DNA from: a virus
DNA length: 31,904 nt
Strand: one strand, 5' to 3'
IMG/VR virus record: IMGVR_UViG_3300049448_000132
Coordinates: 1-31,904 of that record
Shown: positions 2,993 to 18,393 of the stretch, piece after piece
Numbering within the stretch: position 1 is the stretch's first letter
Layout: each line of letters starts with the position of its first letter
The notes under the pieces: generated by a model
The model's database searches: none
What the model was told of the DNA's origin: nothing
The model's input: the letters and a program-made list of their open reading frames with translations, nothing else
Translations under genes and position numbers: made by a program

Positions 2993-3211
2993 ATGACAGA
3001 AATGCTGTTGGTCGATGTATCTAACTGGACACCGAATGTTACTTACGACGAAGGCCTTAAGCTGTGCGAGAAGCTCGGACTGATTGAGACGTTAACGCAC
3101 GGCGAACACGACTACGGCCGGCTCACGCAAACTGGCATCAATGTGTTGAGGGTTCTGATGGTCATGGCCGGACATGCGGCCGATCCAAAGAACACACTGA
3201 AAGGATCATGA
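2993..3211 (+). CDS. Small winged-helix-like protein
   Basis: A 72-aa protein. The ATG at 2993 is preferred over an upstream start because AGGAG at 2981-2985 sits 7 nt before it. The pattern YDEGLKLCEKLGLIETL then DYGRLTQTGINVLRVL resembles the helix-wing part of a winged helix domain, where the RLTxxG turn is common. It is too short for a confident family call. It may bind DNA or regulate early genes, or be an unrelated small fold. The stop overlaps the start of the next gene. Confidence 0.7.
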   Translation: MTEMLLVDVSNWTPNVTYDEGLKLCEKLGLIETLTHGEHDYGRLTQTGINVLRVLMVMAGHAADPKNTLKGS

Positions 3212-3945
3212 TGATGGTTGGAATTGTAGCTGAATGTGAACACTGCGCTGGCAAATGGATGGTGCCGGCAGACATTAAACTGGCGCCGGATGTACTTGAG
3301 GGTTCATGTATGGATTGCCAGCACGAGGGTGATGTCGAGCGTCCGTTGACATTCCGTTACTGGGGCGACGATCGCGATGTCAAGTACGACGAACCTGACG
3401 AGGTGTTGTCGAGGGATTGGTTGCTGCTCGACGACAGCGATGAATACAAAGACGATATGCCGGAAACTCATCCTGATTTCTACAAGGGCGTCGCTGGCAA
3501 GCGCAGCAAGGATTCGCCGCCGATCGATTTCTCAGAGTGGAATCTGTTCAACGAAGACGAGGTAACCAAGTTCTTCAAGCAGTTGCTGCAACGTGGCTTC
3601 CAGCACGCCACCGAAAACTACGAATGCTACGTCACGTTCAGCTCCGATTTCGCCGAGGATATGAGCACAGTGGATGATCCGACCGAGATGCGGGTCAGCC
3701 TGCCGATCGGTGAGACTGAAGATGAAAGTCCAGAATGGCGGTTTTCACTGTCGGATATTATCACCAGTCTGATCGAGTGGAAGGAGGCCGGCATAGGTGG
3801 TCCGATCGAGGGTAACGATCGGCCGCTGATGGAAGCGGTGCGTGACGACCTGCGCCGGTTCGCCAACAAGCTTGATGCCGCATTAAAGCGCAAACCACGT
3901 CCGGCAGCAGCGAAGAAGAAAGCTAAGCCGGAGCTGAAAGAGTGA
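3208..3945 (+). CDS. Hypothetical protein with N-terminal zinc-ribbon-like motif
   Basis: A 245-aa acidic protein. Near the N-terminus a CEHC pair and a later CMDC pair about 24 residues on form a probable treble-clef or zinc-ribbon metal site. The central part is rich in Asp and Glu and the tail (AAAKKKAKPELKE) is strongly basic. Three consecutive ATG codons at 3208, 3211 and 3214 could start it; AAGGA at 3201-3205 is best spaced for 3211 or 3214, while 3208 overlaps the previous stop. Its own stop overlaps the GTG of the next gene (GTGA). The function is unknown. Confidence 0.75.
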   Translation: MMMVGIVAECEHCAGKWMVPADIKLAPDVLEGSCMDCQHEGDVERPLTFRYWGDDRDVKYDEPDEVLSRDWLLLDDSDEYKDDMPETHPDFYKGVAGKRSKDSPPIDFSEWNLFNEDEVTKFFKQLLQRGFQHATENYECYVTFSSDFAEDMSTVDDPTEMRVSLPIGETEDESPEWRFSLSDIITSLIEWKEAGIGGPIEGNDRPLMEAVRDDLRRFANKLDAALKRKPRPAAAKKKAKPELKE

Positions 3946-4445
3946 GACAGAAATCAGAACTGCGACCGTATCAGAACCGGATCGCCAGCGCGCTTTACAA
4001 AAAGCCGGCGGGATACCGTCGCTGGAGCAGCATGAGAGAACGCTGCAATAATCCTAATTGTAAAGATTGGGGTCGGTATGGCGGCCGAGGTATCACCGTA
4101 TGTGAGCGGTGGAATACGTTTGCTAATTTTATCGTCGATGTTGGACATCCGCCGTTTCCTGGCGCGCAACTTGATCGTATCGATAACGATCGCGGGTATG
4201 AGCCGGGTAACGTGCGCTGGGCCACGTCGTATGAGCAACAAGTAAACAGCCGCAAGGTTATGATTTGGGTCGAGGTAGACGGCGTCCGACTTAGTTGGAA
4301 AGCGTGGGCGCGTAAATTAGGTGTCAGCCATCAAGCGTTGAGTTATCGGGCCAAGATATTTGGCAGTCGTGAATTGGCTGTACGGTCGATCGTGAATCTT
4401 CCGATGAACCATCATAATAAATTGGATATGTATTGTGCAGAATAA
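3942..4445 (+). CDS. HNH-family homing endonuclease fused to a copy of the helicase N-terminus
   Basis: A 167-aa protein from a GTG start that overlaps the previous stop. Residues 1-19 (MRQKSELRPYQNRIASALY) do not belong to the endonuclease family; they match the start of the helicase encoded just downstream. Residues 25-105 are a typical phage HNH-type domain: RCNNPNCKDWGRYGGRGI, CERW, then LDRIDNDRGYEPGNVRWAT and EQQVNSR. The usual first His of HNH is replaced by DRIDN, as is common in this subfamily. Residues 107-150 (VDGVRLSWKAWARKLGVS and the following helix) resemble the helix-turn-helix DNA-binding tails of homing endonucleases. The gene appears AT-richer than its neighbours. It is probably a mobile gene inserted into the 5' end of the helicase gene, using the old helicase start for its own translation. 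Confidence 0.9.
   Translation: MRQKSELRPYQNRIASALYKKPAGYRRWSSMRERCNNPNCKDWGRYGGRGITVCERWNTFANFIVDVGHPPFPGAQLDRIDNDRGYEPGNVRWATSYEQQVNSRKVMIWVEVDGVRLSWKAWARKLGVSHQALSYRAKIFGSRELAVRSIVNLPMNHHNKLDMYCAE
3945..3998 (+). repeat. Recoded duplication, copy 1 (helicase Q-motif segment fused to the endonuclease)
   Basis: Codons 2-19 of the endonuclease gene align without gaps to codons 2-19 of the helicase gene (4438-4491). By hand, 13 of 18 residues match but only about 35 of 54 bases do. Of the 13 identical residues, 8 use a different synonymous codon. This is the pattern of a duplicated segment that has been recoded. It covers LRxYQNRIA, the Q-motif-like region of the helicase. Confidence 0.8.
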
Positions 4446-5826
4446 ATCTGAGTTGAGAGCTTACCAAAACAGGATCGCCACTTCTCTTTATGAGTCTGAT
4501 GAGAAGATTGCGGTGGCACGTCCTGGCTCTGGAAAAACAATCGCGGCGCTGACCGCGATCGAGGAGCTGATCCGCGACAAGCATGTTCGCAACGTCCTGG
4601 TGATCGCACCGAAGCGTGTTGCCAGGATGGTATGGCCGGACGAGATCAAGCTGTGGGCGCACACCGCCGGGCTGACCTACCAGGTGATCACCGGCACGCC
4701 ACGGCAGCGTGCCGACATGCTGGCCGACTCCACCGTGTTTAAGATCAACATTCTCGGCATCGACGTCGTCGATTGGTTGTTGTCGGAGCTGACCAAATAC
4801 CCCGATGACCATCCTTTGTTTGATCTGCTGATCATCGACGAGGTGTCGAAGCTGCGCGATCCCTCTGGCGTGCGAGCTCGGATGCTGCTCCGACACGCCA
4901 AGCGGTGGCGCATGATCTGGGGCCTGACCGGAACGCTACGGCCGTCCGGTGTCGCCGATCTGTTTATGCCGGCCACGGTGATAACCCGCGGAAAAATTTG
5001 GGGCCGATCGTTTTATAGCTGGCGCAAGGCGCGGTTCTATCCGGTTGACTACCAGGGCTACCAGTGGGCGCCGCTGCCGGGAGCGGAGGAACTGATCCAC
5101 AAGGAAATCGCACCGCTGTGCGTCACCTTGCGCGACGACGAGCTGCCGCAGCTGCCAGAGCTTTCGATCCTGTTTGACCGCGTCCAGTTGCCGGCCAGCG
5201 CCCGTAAGCAATACAACGATATGGAGGAGCATCTGTTGCTTCGTAATGGCGACGAGACGGTCCTCGCTGCCTCGGCTGCAGTGGCAACTGGCAAGCTCGC
5301 TCAGATCGCCAACGGCTTCGTCTACGACGATGGTACGACGAGCACCATCCACTCGGAGAAGGAGGAGTGGGCGCAGGATATCATCGACAGTGCCGCGGGG
5401 CCGGTGTTGTTCATCTACGAATATCGCGAGGACTTGCGAATGCTGCGTCGGTTGCTCGGCGAAGATCTGCCGTACCTCGGTGATGGGGTCACCGACAAAA
5501 CATCTGATCACAACATCACCCTATGGAATGAGGGCAAGTTGCCGTTCATGGCAATCCATCCAGCATCAGGCGGCCACGGCCTGAATCTCCAGTTCGGCGG
5601 TTGCGACATGGCCTGGATCAGCCCCACCTGGTCACCAGAAATGTGGGAACAAACGATCGCCAGGCTGCATCGTTCCGGGCAGACCAAGCCGGTGGTGGTC
5701 CGCGTCTGCGTAGCCGATGGCACTGTCGACCAGATGAAGATCGATCGCGTGCATAAAAAGATGACGGCGCAGCAAGCGTTCGAGGCCTATTTGCGCCGTC
5801 ATCAAGGAGTAAAGGAGGACGTCTAA
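4435..5826 (+). CDS. SNF2-type superfamily 2 helicase
   Basis: A 463-aa DNA helicase or translocase. Motifs in order: a Q-motif-like LRAYQNRIA at residues 7-15, Walker A ARPGSGKT at 28-35, Walker B LLIIDEVSKL near 135-144 (DEVS in place of DEAH), motif III GLTGTLRP near 162, and motif VI QTIARLHRSGQ near 405. These are typical of short phage SNF2-like helicases. The start is a GTG at 4435, 11 nt inside the endonuclease gene, with no strong Shine-Dalgarno, so translation is likely coupled. A later in-frame ATG exists near 4490 but would remove the Q-motif. The helicase probably acts in replication or recombination with the upstream polymerase. The protein looks intact despite the endonuclease insertion. 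Confidence 0.92.
   Translation: MQNKSELRAYQNRIATSLYESDEKIAVARPGSGKTIAALTAIEELIRDKHVRNVLVIAPKRVARMVWPDEIKLWAHTAGLTYQVITGTPRQRADMLADSTVFKINILGIDVVDWLLSELTKYPDDHPLFDLLIIDEVSKLRDPSGVRARMLLRHAKRWRMIWGLTGTLRPSGVADLFMPATVITRGKIWGRSFYSWRKARFYPVDYQGYQWAPLPGAEELIHKEIAPLCVTLRDDELPQLPELSILFDRVQLPASARKQYNDMEEHLLLRNGDETVLAASAAVATGKLAQIANGFVYDDGTTSTIHSEKEEWAQDIIDSAAGPVLFIYEYREDLRMLRRLLGEDLPYLGDGVTDKTSDHNITLWNEGKLPFMAIHPASGGHGLNLQFGGCDMAWISPTWSPEMWEQTIARLHRSGQTKPVVVRVCVADGTVDQMKIDRVHKKMTAQQAFEAYLRRHQGVKEDV
4438..4491 (+). repeat. Recoded duplication, copy 2 (native helicase reading frame)
   Basis: The partner of the segment at 3945-3998. It supplies helicase residues 2-19 in frame with Walker A. Without it the endonuclease insertion would have cut the Q-motif from the ATPase core. 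Differences from copy 1 fall mostly at synonymous sites, for example CAG/CAA, CGG/AGG, CTG/TTG and TAT/TAC. Confidence 0.8.
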
Positions 5827-5830
5827 GCAT

Positions 5831-6061
5831 CTATAGATTAGCAGCTTTCTCCAGGTTCAGCACCAATTGCTCGTCGAAAGCATTCTTGGCGCTGATCTTG
5901 TGATTTACCAAGGTGTCCGCGATCTGCTTGTTGAGATCGAACAGCTGATCGCGGGTAACCCTGTACCGAGTATGCTTGGTGCCGTCGTTGAGATTGAGGA
6001 TGGGGTCTTCGTTATCGGGGAGGGTTAGATAAACAAAACGTAGGCCAGGCTCCTTTTGCAT
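5831..6061 (-). CDS. Hypothetical protein, last gene of the regulator operon
   Basis: A 76-aa protein. The internal ATG at 6061 is preferred because AGAGG lies about 6 nt before it; a longer frame reaching 6106 would overlap the previous gene. The protein has an RFVYLTLPDNEDPILNLND strand-turn pattern followed by a helical half (RDQLFDLNKQIADTL). I recognise no family. It ends 4 bases from the helicase stop in a convergent arrangement, so the two transcripts meet here. Confidence 0.65.
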   Translation of the reverse strand: MQKEPGLRFVYLTLPDNEDPILNLNDGTKHTRYRVTRDQLFDLNKQIADTLVNHKISAKNAFDEQLVLNLEKAANL

Positions 6062-6083
6062 GGTGGACCTCTTGGTTCGTCGC

Positions 6084-6329
6084 TTACGTTTTAACTGAAC
6101 CACCATCAGCGATTTCCTTCAATGTGAGTCTGGCGATAGTCGCACATTCATCGGACTCGACGTCTGTCTTGGCTGCAATTTCTACCAGTGCGTCGTGCAT
6201 CTTTAGATTTTCGCGCCCCAAGTTGAGTAGCGCGGTCTGAGCCGTTTCGATGTGTTTTTGTATTTCGCCAACGGCGCTATGGATGTCGCCTATCCGTAGA
6301 CGATCGAAGACACTGAATTCAGTCATCAT
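6084..6329 (-). CDS. Small helical (coiled-coil) protein
   Basis: An 81-aa protein whose start overlaps the methyltransferase stop (ATGATG). It is almost entirely predicted helix with heptad-like spacing (SAVGEIQKHIETAQTALLN) and has no Cys or membrane segment. The function is unknown. It is co-transcribed with the regulator and methyltransferase. Confidence 0.65.
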   Translation of the reverse strand: MMTEFSVFDRLRIGDIHSAVGEIQKHIETAQTALLNLGRENLKMHDALVEIAAKTDVESDECATIARLTLKEIADGGSVKT

Positions 6330-6898
6330 GCTTCATCCCGGTGCAGCCATCGCATTTCTGGTTGGCCGTTATACCCATGCTCGAATACCAACCAACAATA
6401 GTCCGACTTGCCGCCGCCCACCTTGCCCTTGTTCATGATGACATGGCCCGGCGGCATTGACGGCCGCGGGGTCAGCAGCCAGACGCGCCGCAGCGGCGAA
6501 CCCACTAGCCAGCGGGCGGCGTTGAGCCGCGCGGTCGGCATGATCAGCGCCACCTTCATTCCACTGTGCGTCAGCGCGTGAATGGCGAATTCTCTGAAAA
6601 TATCGAATGGTGGATTTGACACGATGTTGTCGTGTACGTCGGTGCTCTTCAGGAAGTCTTTCGGCTTGAAGATGTTGACATAACCGTGGCGGTCGACGAT
6701 ATCGCAGCCGCCGGCGTCGAGGTCGGCGGCTTGAGCTGACGCTACAATCCGGCCGAAGCCGCAGGCCGGGTCGTAGATCCCGCCGATGAATTTCTCTTCC
6801 TCGAACAGCCGCTCGCTGACCCAGAACGGCTCGACGTAGTGCTCGTCGACCCGGGGATAGGCTGCGGCGCCGGCAGTGTGGGTCCAGGGCTGGCTCAT
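6326..6898 (-). CDS. Adenine-specific DNA methyltransferase-like protein
   Basis: A 190-aa class I SAM-dependent methyltransferase. Motif I, DPACGFGRI, lies near residues 40-48 and binds S-adenosylmethionine. The catalytic motif IV, NPPF, lies near residue 95, as in N6-adenine methyltransferases. The ATG at 6898 is chosen because it overlaps the previous stop (ATGA) and has GAGGA 6 nt upstream; a longer frame exists. The protein is short with little room for a target recognition domain, so the specificity cannot be inferred. No restriction endonuclease is beside it, so it is probably an orphan phage methyltransferase that protects or marks phage DNA. This last point is inference. Confidence 0.85.
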   Translation of the reverse strand: MSQPWTHTAGAAAYPRVDEHYVEPFWVSERLFEEEKFIGGIYDPACGFGRIVASAQAADLDAGGCDIVDRHGYVNIFKPKDFLKSTDVHDNIVSNPPFDIFREFAIHALTHSGMKVALIMPTARLNAARWLVGSPLRRVWLLTPRPSMPPGHVIMNKGKVGGGKSDYCWLVFEHGYNGQPEMRWLHRDEA

Positions 6899-7209
6899 GT
6901 GATGTCCTCGTTCCATTGCCATTTGCCGTCGACCCATTTGCCGTTCACCGGATCGGCGCATTCGACCGCGCGGACGGCATCAGCCGAGGTCCAGCGCGCT
7001 TCCAGGTCGCGGGCGTAAGCTATTGCTTCTGCTTCGGTTTCGCAGCGTATCGCGTTGTCGTACCATTTCGGGTCGTTGTGAACGCGCACCTCTGGTTTCC
7101 ATGACATGTTGGGGTTCCTGTAACTGTAAGATCTTCGATCGATTTCATTGCCGGCGGCGTCCCAGACGACGGCGTCGACAACATGCACGGTCCGGCCGGC
7201 GAGGTTCAC
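6895..7209 (-). CDS. Hypothetical protein
   Basis: A 104-aa protein beginning with a GTG that overlaps the previous stop (GTGA). It has an N-terminal beta-like half (VHVVDAVVWDAAGNEIDRRS), a Trp-rich middle (MSWKPEVRVHNDPKWYDNA), then a helix with ETEAEAIAYARDLEARW. The last element resembles helices found in small phage proteins that follow a short beta-sheet, but I recognise no named family. Confidence 0.7.
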   Translation of the reverse strand: MNLAGRTVHVVDAVVWDAAGNEIDRRSYSYRNPNMSWKPEVRVHNDPKWYDNAIRCETEAEAIAYARDLEARWTSADAVRAVECADPVNGKWVDGKWQWNEDIT

Positions 7210-7758: not shown

Positions 7759-7817
7759 GTACCTAGTTCAATTTTTCTGAGTAGGCAAGTGTTGCAACTC
7801 AGAAAAATTGAAGGTAC
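7759..7817. promoter_or_regulatory. Long inverted repeat in the divergent control region
   Basis: TTCAATTTTTCTGAGT at 7767-7782 is the exact reverse complement of ACTCAGAAAAATTGAA at 7797-7812, with a 14-nt spacer. Outer GTACC (7759-7763) and GGTAC (7813-7817) also match once a 3-nt bulge is allowed. It begins 5 nt before the regulator start codon. It can be a dimeric operator for the regulator at 7523-7753, or an RNA hairpin that hides the ribosome binding site of the regulator. The A/T-rich arms differ from the GC-rich surroundings. Confidence 0.75.
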
Positions 7818-7836
7818 GCTGACCTTGGTATACCAA
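7808..7836 (+). promoter_or_regulatory. Possible promoter overlapping a 12-bp palindrome
   Basis: TTGAAG (7808-7813) and TATACC (7829-7834), spaced 15 nt apart, resemble -35 and -10 hexamers, with TGG just before the -10 giving some extended -10 character. TTGGTATACCAA at 7825-7836 is a perfect palindrome covering the -10, a good position for a repressor site. The promoter would serve the gene starting at 7861. The hexamers are imperfect, so the promoter call is tentative; the palindrome itself is certain. Confidence 0.4.
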
Positions 7837-7860
7837 CTACCAAACCTAGGAGTTACGCCT

Positions 7861-8502
7861 ATGAGACGTTTTCTTGTGGCGGCCGCGCTGGTCTGCGCCG
7901 CCGCCACGGCTTCCCGTGCTGACATCATCCTCGACACCACAGGTATCGGCGGTACTGGCACCAACGTCACCTTCGAGAGTGTTGCCAGCTCCAACCTGAT
8001 CCTTGGCCGCCTCAACGGTCAGAACAACGAAGTCGTTCGCTTCCGCGATCTGTCCGGCAACGGTGCCTTCACGGGTGCTGCCAACGGCAACGACATCAAG
8101 ATCTTCAACACCAGCGATCTTGATATTTCGGTATTCAACAGCCTCAACCTTACTCAGCTGGGTGTCACCAGGGATGTCTTTTCCATCGTTGGGACCGGCA
8201 CTGTGCTGTTTCATGTGACGGCGCTGGAGAGCAACGGCACTTTCCAGAACTTTAATTTCAGCAGCGTTCTGACGAACGGCCAGAACGGCTTCGACTTCAA
8301 GGCCATCAACGGCGAGAAGATCTGGGACATGGATCTTGTCGTAGCCGGTGGTAGCATTACTGACTTCGAACATTTCCGCATCGACGTGGCTCCGGCCGCG
8401 GCGGTGCCGTTGCCGATCGCAGGCGCCGGGTTGCCAGGTTTAGTAGCTGCGTTGTGTGGATTAGTAGCGTTGCGTCAGCGGCGTCGGCGTAGTGTAGCCT
8501 GA
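7861..8502 (+). CDS. Secreted protein with signal peptide and VPLP/PEP-CTERM-like anchor
   Basis: A 213-aa exported protein. The ATG at 7861 is chosen because AGGAG lies 8 nt upstream and a signal peptide starts directly: MRRFLVAAALVCAAATASRA with probable cleavage after SRA. The mature part is rich in Asn, Gly, Asp and Thr, looks beta-rich, and has no known catalytic motif. The C-terminus is a tripartite sorting signal: VPLP near residue 181, a hydrophobic helix (AGAGLPGLVAALCGLVAL), then RQRRRR. This matches the VPLPA/PEP-CTERM type signals handled by exosortase-like systems in Gram-negative bacteria. Such tails are typical of host surface proteins, not phage proteins, so this is likely a moron that changes the cell surface of the host. 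It stands alone between a divergent operator and a terminator. Confidence 0.85.
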   Translation: MRRFLVAAALVCAAATASRADIILDTTGIGGTGTNVTFESVASSNLILGRLNGQNNEVVRFRDLSGNGAFTGAANGNDIKIFNTSDLDISVFNSLNLTQLGVTRDVFSIVGTGTVLFHVTALESNGTFQNFNFSSVLTNGQNGFDFKAINGEKIWDMDLVVAGGSITDFEHFRIDVAPAAAVPLPIAGAGLPGLVAALCGLVALRQRRRRSVA

Positions 8503-16716: not shown

Positions 16717-17361
16717 TTAACCCTGCGTCGTAGTGATGTTGCCTTGGCCACGGCCACTGGCAGCGGCGAGCTGACGGTTGGCTTCGGACTGACCGACCGC
16801 CGGAGCTATTGCCGAGCCCAGGCCGATCGCGATCGGCTTGAACATATCACCAAGCGCGCTGACGTTCGGCTGCTGCAATTGGGCGTTGGCCGCGGAGTTC
16901 GCCGCGGTGTTGGCGGCGACGGTCGGGTCTTCGGTGGCGTACAGCTGGTTATAAGCCTGCTGTTGCTGGGCCGCGATCGACTGACGCAAAGCCGCCGTAT
17001 CAGTGTCGGCTTTGGCGCGTAAGCCTGCTTCATTGACGCCCTGCTGCTGGGTCAACTTGTTCTGCACGAAGCCGGCGGCGCCGGAACGTAACAGTCCAGC
17101 TCGAGCCAGGTCATTCTCGGCGTTACGTTTTGCTTCAGTGTACTGGGTACTCAGCTGCGGCAGCGTGTAGTCCAGCTCGGCGTTCTTGTACTTGTCGTAG
17201 AACGGATCGCCGAAGTTGTCGTTACCAAAGATGTTATCGATCGCGGTCTTGCCCTGGTTGAGCCGGGCCTGGCGCGCGTTCTCTTTGTCTTTGGCTTCCT
17301 GTGCCTGCTGCATCTGCAGCTGCACGGCTTGGTTATTTGATGGTCCGCTTTTGCCACCCAT
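16717..17361 (-). CDS. Glutamine-rich virion protein with MGGK start
   Basis: A 214-aa protein starting MGGKSGPSNNQ, fourth in a run of MGGK proteins. Residues 10-40 are Gln/Lys/Glu-rich helix (LQMQQAQEAKDKENARQARL), followed by FGNDNFGDPFYDKYKNAELDY and a long helical region up to about 130 (RNAENDLARAGLLRSGAAGF). The C-terminus is Ala/Gly-rich with GLGSAIAPAVGQ. The composition and place beside a gp14-like protein suggest an internal virion protein. Its start shares the junction GTGTGACATGGG with its upstream neighbours. Confidence 0.7.
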   Translation of the reverse strand: MGGKSGPSNNQAVQLQMQQAQEAKDKENARQARLNQGKTAIDNIFGNDNFGDPFYDKYKNAELDYTLPQLSTQYTEAKRNAENDLARAGLLRSGAAGFVQNKLTQQQGVNEAGLRAKADTDTAALRQSIAAQQQQAYNQLYATEDPTVAANTAANSAANAQLQQPNVSALGDMFKPIAIGLGSAIAPAVGQSEANRQLAAASGRGQGNITTTQG

Positions 17362-17362
17362 G

Positions 17363-17701
17363 TCACACCTGTGTATTTGTTGTATTGGGATCTTTTCCGT
17401 AATCTTCCCAGAACTTCGGCGGCGTCAGTACAGCCTTCTTGGCGACGTCTCCGGTGGTGTCCTTGGTCGTCTCAGTGCCGGACACGCCTTCGGCCGGCGC
17501 AGTAACACTGGTTACGGTATCCTGCGGCTTCGCAGTGGCGGCCGCGGCGGCTTTCTTGACGTCGATGTTCGACTGAATCTTGGACATGTCGACCGGCGCC
17601 GTGTTGGCGAGCGTCTTCGTTGCTTCTTCGACTGTCGAATTGCCCGACTTGTCGACGGGTTGCTGGTAGTAGTTGCCGCCGCCGCCACCCTTACCGCCCA
17701 T
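17363..17701 (-). CDS. MGGK-family small virion-region protein 3
   Basis: A 112-aa protein, start MGGKGGGGGNYYQQ, end NTQV. The middle is Ala/Thr/Lys-rich and looks disordered. Near the C-terminus, ETTKDTTGDVAKKAV resembles TKDPMKTTGDLLAQS of the gene before it, so the two may be paralogues. It is separated by 1 nt from the neighbours on both sides. The function is unknown. Confidence 0.65.
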   Translation of the reverse strand: MGGKGGGGGNYYQQPVDKSGNSTVEEATKTLANTAPVDMSKIQSNIDVKKAAAAATAKPQDTVTSVTAPAEGVSGTETTKDTTGDVAKKAVLTPPKFWEDYGKDPNTTNTQV

Positions 17702-17702
17702 G

Positions 17703-17996
17703 TCACACCTGCCCTGTTAGGTTGGTGGGATCCGCAACGGATTGCGCCAGCAAGTCGCCGGTTGTTTTCATGGGATCCTTTGTCACTTCCACCTGGCTTA
17801 TCGCCTCGCCTGGCGAGATCGGCGAAATATCAGGCGGCGGTGCCGCCGGCGGCGGTGCGTCTGGTGGCGGCGGTGGCGGCGGTGGCGGCGGTGGCGGCGG
17901 CGCTTCGGGTGCAGCTGGCAGCGGCACGTCAGGCGCCGGCGGCGGCGGGGCGGTCTCCGTCTGCATCTGCTGATTGCTTCTGCCTTTGCCGCCCAC
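17703..17996 (-). CDS. MGGK-family polyproline protein 2
   Basis: A 97-aa protein from a GTG start, MGGKGRSNQQMQTE, ending LTGQV. Residues about 18-55 are nearly all Pro and Ala, with a run of 13 prolines encoded by a repeating 9-nt pattern near 17863-17901. Residues 56-85 (DISPISPGEAISQVEV and TTGDLLAQSVA) match the C-terminal part of protein 1. The protein is probably extended and disordered. Its role in the virion is unknown. Confidence 0.65.
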   Translation of the reverse strand: MGGKGRSNQQMQTETAPPPPAPDVPLPAAPEAPPPPPPPPPPPPPDAPPPAAPPPDISPISPGEAISQVEVTKDPMKTTGDLLAQSVADPTNLTGQV

Positions 17997-17997
17997 G

Positions 17998-18393
17998 TCA
18001 CACCTGCCCTTTGTTTACCGTTAGGCTGTCGCCGGACGATTGCTTTAGTTGGTCTTGCCACATCGCTGGCGCGATCGATTGCGCCATGAGGTTGCCGGTC
18101 GGTTGTTTGGTGTCCGGTGTGGTCACCGCGTGACCTGGCGATATCGGTGAAACATTAGAGGTCGGTGGCGGCGCCGCGGGCGTGGCCGGCTGTTCTATCG
18201 CTGGCGTTTCCGCTGCGGCCGGAGCGGCCATAGGCGCGGCTTCGGGTGTGGGTGTGGGCGGGTCAGCAGCCGCCGGCCAGTTCGCTGGCAGTGGCTGGCC
18301 AAAGAAGGCGTGCATGACATTCTGGTTCGCTGCCGTGACGGCCTCATCCTGGGTCATCATCTGGCCGTTGCTGCCGGGAGATTTTCCACCCAT
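17998..18393 (-). CDS. MGGK-family protein 1
   Basis: A 131-aa protein, start MGGKSPGSNGQMMTQDEAVT, end NKGQV. The ATG overlaps the acetyltransferase stop (TGATG). The centre is Pro/Ala-rich. The shared module NVSPISPGHAVTT and TGNLMAQSIA near residues 80-108 aligns with DISPISPGEAIS and TGDLLAQSVA in protein 2. I know of no family with this signature. It is likely a virion-associated or assembly protein by position. Confidence 0.65.
   Translation of the reverse strand: MGGKSPGSNGQMMTQDEAVTAANQNVMHAFFGQPLPANWPAAADPPTPTPEAAPMAAPAAAETPAIEQPATPAAPPPTSNVSPISPGHAVTTPDTKQPTGNLMAQSIAPAMWQDQLKQSSGDSLTVNKGQV

Follow-up and report, generated by a model that had tools for sequence, protein, structure and literature searches.

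A phage HNH endonuclease gene fused to a native helicase start and followed by a respelled copy: probable intron-less homing with replacement of a host-gene end

Introduction

How does a phage helicase gene stay whole when an endonuclease gene lies within its 5' end? This question is raised by a 31.9-kb virus record (IMG/VR record IMGVR_UViG_3300049448_000132, positions 1 to 31,904; hereafter the window), which encodes a family A DNA polymerase, a SNF2/DEAD-type helicase, a terminase and large structural proteins. In the window, an HNH endonuclease open reading frame (ORF) begins with one copy of the helicase start, and the helicase itself begins with a second, differently spelled copy. Here, we compare this locus with related IMG/VR sequences, labelled L005, L006, L007 and so on. 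The comparison suggests that an intron-less HNH homing gene probably invaded the helicase 5' end, bringing with it a respelled, cleavage-resistant end that rescued the helicase. The locus consists of the following parts.

3208..3945, + strand: upstream gene of unknown function, 245 aa; its TGA stop and the GTG of copy 1 share bases (GTGA)
3942..3998, + strand: copy 1, comprising native helicase codons 1-19, with which the endonuclease ORF now begins; identified by comparison with alleles lacking the insertion (empty alleles)
3942..4445, + strand: HNH endonuclease ORF, 167 aa; residues 1-19 are helicase-derived and residues ~20-167 comprise the HNH nuclease and a C-terminal helix-turn-helix (HTH)
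3999..4539, + strand: putative cassette, a truncated HNH gene plus respelled helicase codons 1-35, replacing native codons 20-35
4435..4445, + strand: overlap between the end of the endonuclease ORF (stop) and the beginning of the helicase (GTG), a possible translational coupling
4435..4539, + strand: copy 2, the respelled helicase codons 1-35, recognized by silent divergence from L006 and by G+C content at third codon positions (GC3)
4519..4539, + strand: respelled Walker A, codons 29-35, by codon comparison with relatives
4435..5826, + strand: SNF2/DEAD-type phage DNA helicase, 463 aa (Pfam SNF2-rel_dom, E 3e-12; PHROG 62 DNA helicase, E 2e-104)

The left edge of the cassette was set by the empty alleles and its right edge by the comparison with L006.

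Two homologous helicase starts in one locus

Over codons 1-19, the ORF that begins at 3942 shares 14 of 19 residues and 38 of 57 bases with the helicase that begins at 4435, and 8 of the 13 identical internal residues are encoded by a different codon in the two copies. The original prediction, made from the letters of the window alone, had counted 14 matching residues and 8 recoded positions, and our recount gave exactly both figures. The local protein score of the two copies was 72, compared with 32 ± 4.6 (maximum 51) in 500 shuffles. Nineteen randomly placed substitutions would keep 7.8 of the 19 residues, and the probability of keeping at least 14 is 1.5e-4. This excess of residue identity indicates that the copies are homologous and that both evolved as coding sequence. 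As the longest perfect match between them is 9 bases, loop-out recombination between the copies is expected to be rare.

When 2.9 million viral contigs were scanned with a degenerate pattern, the helicase start occurred twice in just one of them, a contig of the same virus. A misassembly is disfavoured by a second IMG/VR contig, L005 (IMGVR_UViG_3300046817_000395): its ends differ from those of the window, but it shares the arrangement, with 100% identity across 11.8 kb.

Copy 1 is the native helicase start

Helicase searches gave ~50 distinct related IMG/VR alleles for comparison. These have a single helicase start without such an insertion, and many of them begin M-R-x-K-S-E-L-R-P-Y-Q-x-R-I-A-x-x-L-Y-E-x-D-E-K, written in GC-rich codons. 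The original prediction had proposed an alignment with relatives lacking the endonuclease; in this alignment, the empty alleles look like copy 1, not copy 2. Across codons 4-19, copy 1 shares 46 of 48 bases with the empty allele L007/L021. The mean silent distance to the native alleles is 0.50 for copy 1 and 0.65 for copy 2, with 0.47 between the native alleles themselves.

The neighbouring gene points in the same direction. Homologues of the upstream gene directly precede empty helicases in L056/L015, L048/L014, L030/L011, L053 and L007, and the GTGA overlap of this gene with copy 1 is retained in the window. Given the L007-like spelling, the native neighbour gene and the GTGA overlap, copy 1 is the native gene start and is now used by the endonuclease. 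This bears out the earlier proposal that the HNH gene took over the original GTG start. A relative carrying both segments without the endonuclease, which had been named beforehand as evidence to the contrary, was not found in the pattern scan of viral contigs.

Copy 2 is respelled up to codon 35

The closest view of copy 2 comes from L006, whose helicase protein is 95% identical to that of the window. In 30-base bins from the start of copy 2 into the helicase, the identity to L006 is 63, 73, 80 and 80%, followed by 100% in nine bins. Codon 35 (ACA/ACC) is the last to differ, with full identity across codons 36-60. Of the codons shared with L006, 48% differ silently within codons 3-35, but none (0%) within codons 36-85. 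Among 52 lineages, copy 2 ranks first for excess silent divergence in the 5' tract. Compared with L022, it shows 3 residue changes in 33 codons at 63% silent change, whereas native pairs with at least 60% silent change differ by at least 5 residues (median 12).

The respelling is dense in Walker A. Copy 2 reads CGT CCT GGC TCT GGA AAA ACA where the usual spelling is CGG CCG GGC GGC GGC AAG ACC; codons 28-30 and 33-35 are changed silently and codon 32 is replaced. GC3 is 43 in copy 2, 51 in the HNH gene and 76 in the helicase body. Codons 1-35 of copy 2 run in frame into the remaining helicase, in agreement with the original prediction that a recoded piece rebuilds this gene. The predicted recoding itself is real, but its extent exceeds the 19 codons first noted and reaches codon 35 (window 4539). 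The junction had also been placed just before Walker A; this does not hold, as Walker A proper (codons 31-35) lies 11 codons past the junction and is itself respelled.

Taken with the previous section, native sequence ends after copy 1 (codon 19), and copy 2 returns to it from codon 36 onward. The one piece of the native gene start that the genome therefore lacks is the 48 bp of codons 20-35, which include Walker A. Regarding the source of copy 2, three helicase scans and the degenerate pattern scan of viral contigs found no allele so spelled, and a search of the genome collection returned only distant relatives.

The endonuclease is a truncated HNH gene fused to the native start

Residues 23-141 of the 167-aa ORF match the HNH endonuclease family PHROG 3377 (E 8e-41). 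The AlphaFold2 model has a predicted local distance difference test score (pLDDT) of 87.6 and is confident from residue 21 to ~150, with low confidence for residues 1-20. It confidently predicts a beta-beta-alpha core at residues 76-102 and places an HTH at the C-terminus. By fold, the HNH enzyme PacI matches best (Z 6.1), and the C-terminal HTH resembles the DNA-binding domain of I-TevI (Z 2.6), both at modest similarity. A sequence search of solved structures found none similar to the endonuclease, and Foldseek alone gave no significant match.

The HNH relatives adjacent to helicases in L046 and L051 carry ~20 residues of their own before a conserved YRQW. In the window, the family match starts at the YRQW point, immediately after the helicase-derived residues. 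Because the family match begins there, the window gene is an HNH gene that has lost its 5' end and been joined in frame to the start of the native helicase. In none of 80 related HNH loci is the start of the downstream gene duplicated, and none of them has such an N-terminus, which speaks against the possibility, raised in the original prediction, that the family normally carries it. A match to phage D3 orf78 from residue 1 was rejected as a weak extension only, the N-terminus of orf78 being unrelated.

The distribution of the HNH gene is sporadic. It is missing at the same place in the ~50 alleles, including the close relative L006, and a search for it in the 47.7-kb L006 record, which may be a fragment, gave no match.

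Proposed homing into the helicase gene

We consider it likely that the locus arose when an HNH homing gene without an intron invaded the helicase 5' end together with a respelled rescue end resistant to cleavage. This explanation builds on what the alignments display directly: the truncation and fusion of the HNH gene, the identity of the native copy, both edges of the replacement, the mostly silent change and the absence of the arrangement from relatives. The incoming cassette would have been an HNH gene missing its own 5' end, followed by the respelled helicase codons 1-35. It would have taken the place of native codons 20-35, with the HNH frame continuing that of native codons 1-19. The endonuclease would thereby have acquired the native helicase start (copy 1), with the helicase now made from copy 2, whose start overlaps the endonuclease stop.

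Homing genes must leave their own carrier genome protected. If this phage is self-protected, the recognition site must overlap codons 20-35, since these are the only native piece of the start that is absent. The enzyme would hence be expected to cut empty helicase alleles within these 48 bp, around Walker A. Repair could then copy the cassette by means of homology to the upstream gene and codons 1-19 on one side and to codon 36 onward on the other. Copy 2 would escape cutting and, with its 9 bp of unbroken match, would seldom recombine with copy 1, such that helicase function survives. The helicase start at 4435 may be read by re-initiation at the overlapping stop or via a weak GGAT signal upstream. 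All in all, the original prediction was right in its observation and largely right in its interpretation.

HNH genes and respelled helicase starts in other lineages

Same-family HNH genes end directly at the helicase start in L051/L052 (1887-2575) and L046 (2071-2560). In these lineages, the first 20-25 helicase codons are AT-rich and respelled, with GC-rich sequence thereafter. The three HNH-adjacent lineages (window, L051 and L046) rank 1, 2 and 5 of 52 in excess silent change. In a within-body control, the window and L051 are not unusual and L046 ranks 5. The respelled tract of L051 has a GC3 of 28 and the adjoining HNH gene one of 66; as the tract is far more AT-rich, simple import together with the HNH gene is disfavoured in that lineage.

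Related HNH genes also occur at least one gene upstream of the helicase, in L024 (1383-1799), L026/L027 (1001-1585) and L216 (1502-1882); in these, the helicase start is not respelled. Separately, Walker A is respelled across codons 29-35 in L040, L045, L070 and L211 (GGG TCT GGA AAA AC. and similar), where an HNH gene upstream of the helicase was not found. These spellings are possible cleavage-escape alleles. When codon over-dispersion was compared along the helicase, the codon window GSGKT was highest of 91 (1.53), with ALTAI next and close (1.41), and the focal respelling of Walker A is no more than suggestive of a footprint.

A more far-reaching idea is that a natural cut-and-rescue drive has arisen repeatedly. 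In that case, one HNH family would have settled at the helicase 5' end in the window, L046 and L051/L052, each start would have been respelled by selection against cutting rather than merely imported, and L040, L045, L211 and L070 would hold escape alleles or scars of lost elements. We put this forward tentatively and think it rather unlikely in this full form.

Points against homing and alternative explanations

Several observations weigh against the homing explanation or soften it. The rank-sum association between HNH adjacency and silent change (P = 1.8e-4) includes three HNH-adjacent lineages and was framed after the first such case had appeared. In L069 (2501-2561), the first 20 helicase codons are strongly AT-rich (GC3 16; body 87) with no HNH gene upstream; a scar of a lost element is possible there. 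The predicted mRNA at the copy 2 start is the least structured among the alleles folded (-10.0 compared with a mean of -22 kcal/mol), and part of the AT shift may serve translation. L006 is the closest match to the helicase body but shares only 38 of 48 bases with copy 1, for which L007 is closest. Judged by these spellings, the recipient was itself mosaic, with neither L006 nor L007 as its exact parent, and ordinary recombination among phages may account for part of the sharpness of the edge at codon 35/36.

Such recombination is central to an alternative that addresses where copy 2 came from and does not conflict with homing. By plain co-conversion, an HNH gene that already stood before a divergent, lower-GC helicase elsewhere would have been brought in together with the donor's first 35 codons, making copy 2 foreign and never respelled under selection. 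We give this a chance only slightly below even. HNH genes do lie directly before the helicase in L046 and L051, the HNH gene and copy 2 both have a lower GC3 than the helicase body, and the phages of the group are visibly mosaic. Yet the three helicase scans and the pattern scan turned up no copy-2-like allele, the silent change of copy 2 per residue change exceeds that of native pairs, and the L051 tract and HNH gene differ in composition. Selection-driven respelling and divergent import would both fit homing as the main explanation. A different selective force is invoked if the AT-rich codons of copy 2 were favoured because they help translation to begin at a new start within a polycistron, rather than for escape from cleavage. 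The weak predicted structure at this start would agree with that, as would the native ribosome-binding context having remained with copy 1. We nevertheless regard it as improbable, as the respelling reaches codon 35 and is dense in Walker A, far from the start, and L051 and L046 also have respelled starts, whose predicted structure is not unusually weak.

Two further alternatives were considered. In the first, the helicase start was duplicated in tandem, the copies drifted apart, and an unrelated HNH gene with no homing link to the helicase inserted between them; the HNH domain would then be flanked by two homologous starts, as is seen. However, the divergence is one-sided, with copy 1 native-like and the helicase-serving copy 2 strongly diverged; it ends sharply at codon 36; copy 1 is not followed by native codons 20-35; and no relative has the duplication without the HNH gene. 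On these grounds such a duplication is very improbable. A group I intron or an intein holding the HNH gene, with codons 1-19 of copy 2 non-coding, merits even less credence and is extremely improbable. It draws on the fact that copy 1 codon 19 joined to copy 2 codon 20 yields a complete helicase frame. Against an intron, positions 3000-6400 gave no Rfam match at E<=1, and the 493 nt with an ORF of ~450 nt leave no room for a ribozyme core. Against an intein, the HNH frame stops at 4445 and the helicase is read in a different frame. Copy 2 is moreover conserved as protein over codons 1-19, contrary to either.

Comparison with known systems

The closest parallels are hybrids of mobile ORFs and host genes in fungal mitochondria (Allomyces macrogynus atp6; Glomus atp6, atp9, cox2 and nad3; PMC3630166). 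As proposed here, an intron-less homing gene sits in a host gene and carries an in-phase replacement end; the displaced native end persists as a relic near to that of relatives, and the replacement has diverged mostly silently. The relic ends are 91-98% identical to relatives, and the inserted ends 64-81% identical in DNA and 94-100% in protein (PMC3630166). This confirms, at 3' ends, the fungal precedent for duplicated host-gene ends that the original prediction had named. In the fungal hybrids it is the 3' (C-terminal) end that is replaced, the enzymes are LAGLIDADG or GIY-YIG and the setting is mitochondrial (PMC3630166). In the phage case, by contrast, it is the 5' end, including the start codon and Walker A, the enzyme is HNH, and the relic has been captured as the enzyme's own start codon and N-terminus.

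Among phages, the free-standing T4-like endonucleases SegF, SegG and MobE (PMC2988022) are likewise intron-less, lie beside their likely target, have stop/start overlaps with neighbours and are absent from close relatives. They sit between genes, whereas the gene in the window broke into coding sequence and left a duplicated, respelled start. Split genes, such as Aeh1 nrdA with mobE and T4 gene 60 with mobA (PMC2988022), also hold a homing gene within the coding region of a gene of nucleotide or DNA metabolism. There, the host gene is left as two reassembling pieces, while the window helicase is rebuilt whole by the second copy of its end. Engineered home-and-rescue drives (HomeR; PMC7968924) similarly join a nuclease at an essential gene with a recoded rescue. 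HomeR is an engineered Cas9 system in insects, and the analogy is one of logic, not kinship.

Searches of open-licence papers yielded no description of a phage locus in which a 5' end is duplicated and respelled. From its sequence, the locus would represent intron-less homing with host-gene end replacement in a 5'-end, phage and HNH form. If so, a phage helicase gene can be entered within its coding sequence by a homing gene that lacks a splicing element but carries a respelled gene start. A curiosity of fungal mitochondria would thereby be tied to phages, and recoded-rescue gene drives would have a counterpart in nature, relatives with possible escape spellings included. Sequence alone narrows the predicted cut site to 48 bp, codons 20-35 around Walker A, which makes the idea directly testable.

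Other features of the window

Three further features of the window were noted. At 7789-8502 on the + strand, the phage genome encodes a predicted secreted protein with a PEP-CTERM-like tail (VPLPIAGAGLPGLVAALCGLVALRQRRRR), for which Pfam and NCBIfam searches gave no match. At 6326-6961 on the - strand lies a gene for a small NPPF-motif protein, probably an adenine methyltransferase (weak EcoRI_methylase match, E 0.045). Four adjacent small genes occupy 16717-18393 on the - strand; their proteins, which had no match in an NCBIfam search, all start with MGGK and are rich in low-complexity stretches, and the genes look like tandem paralogues.

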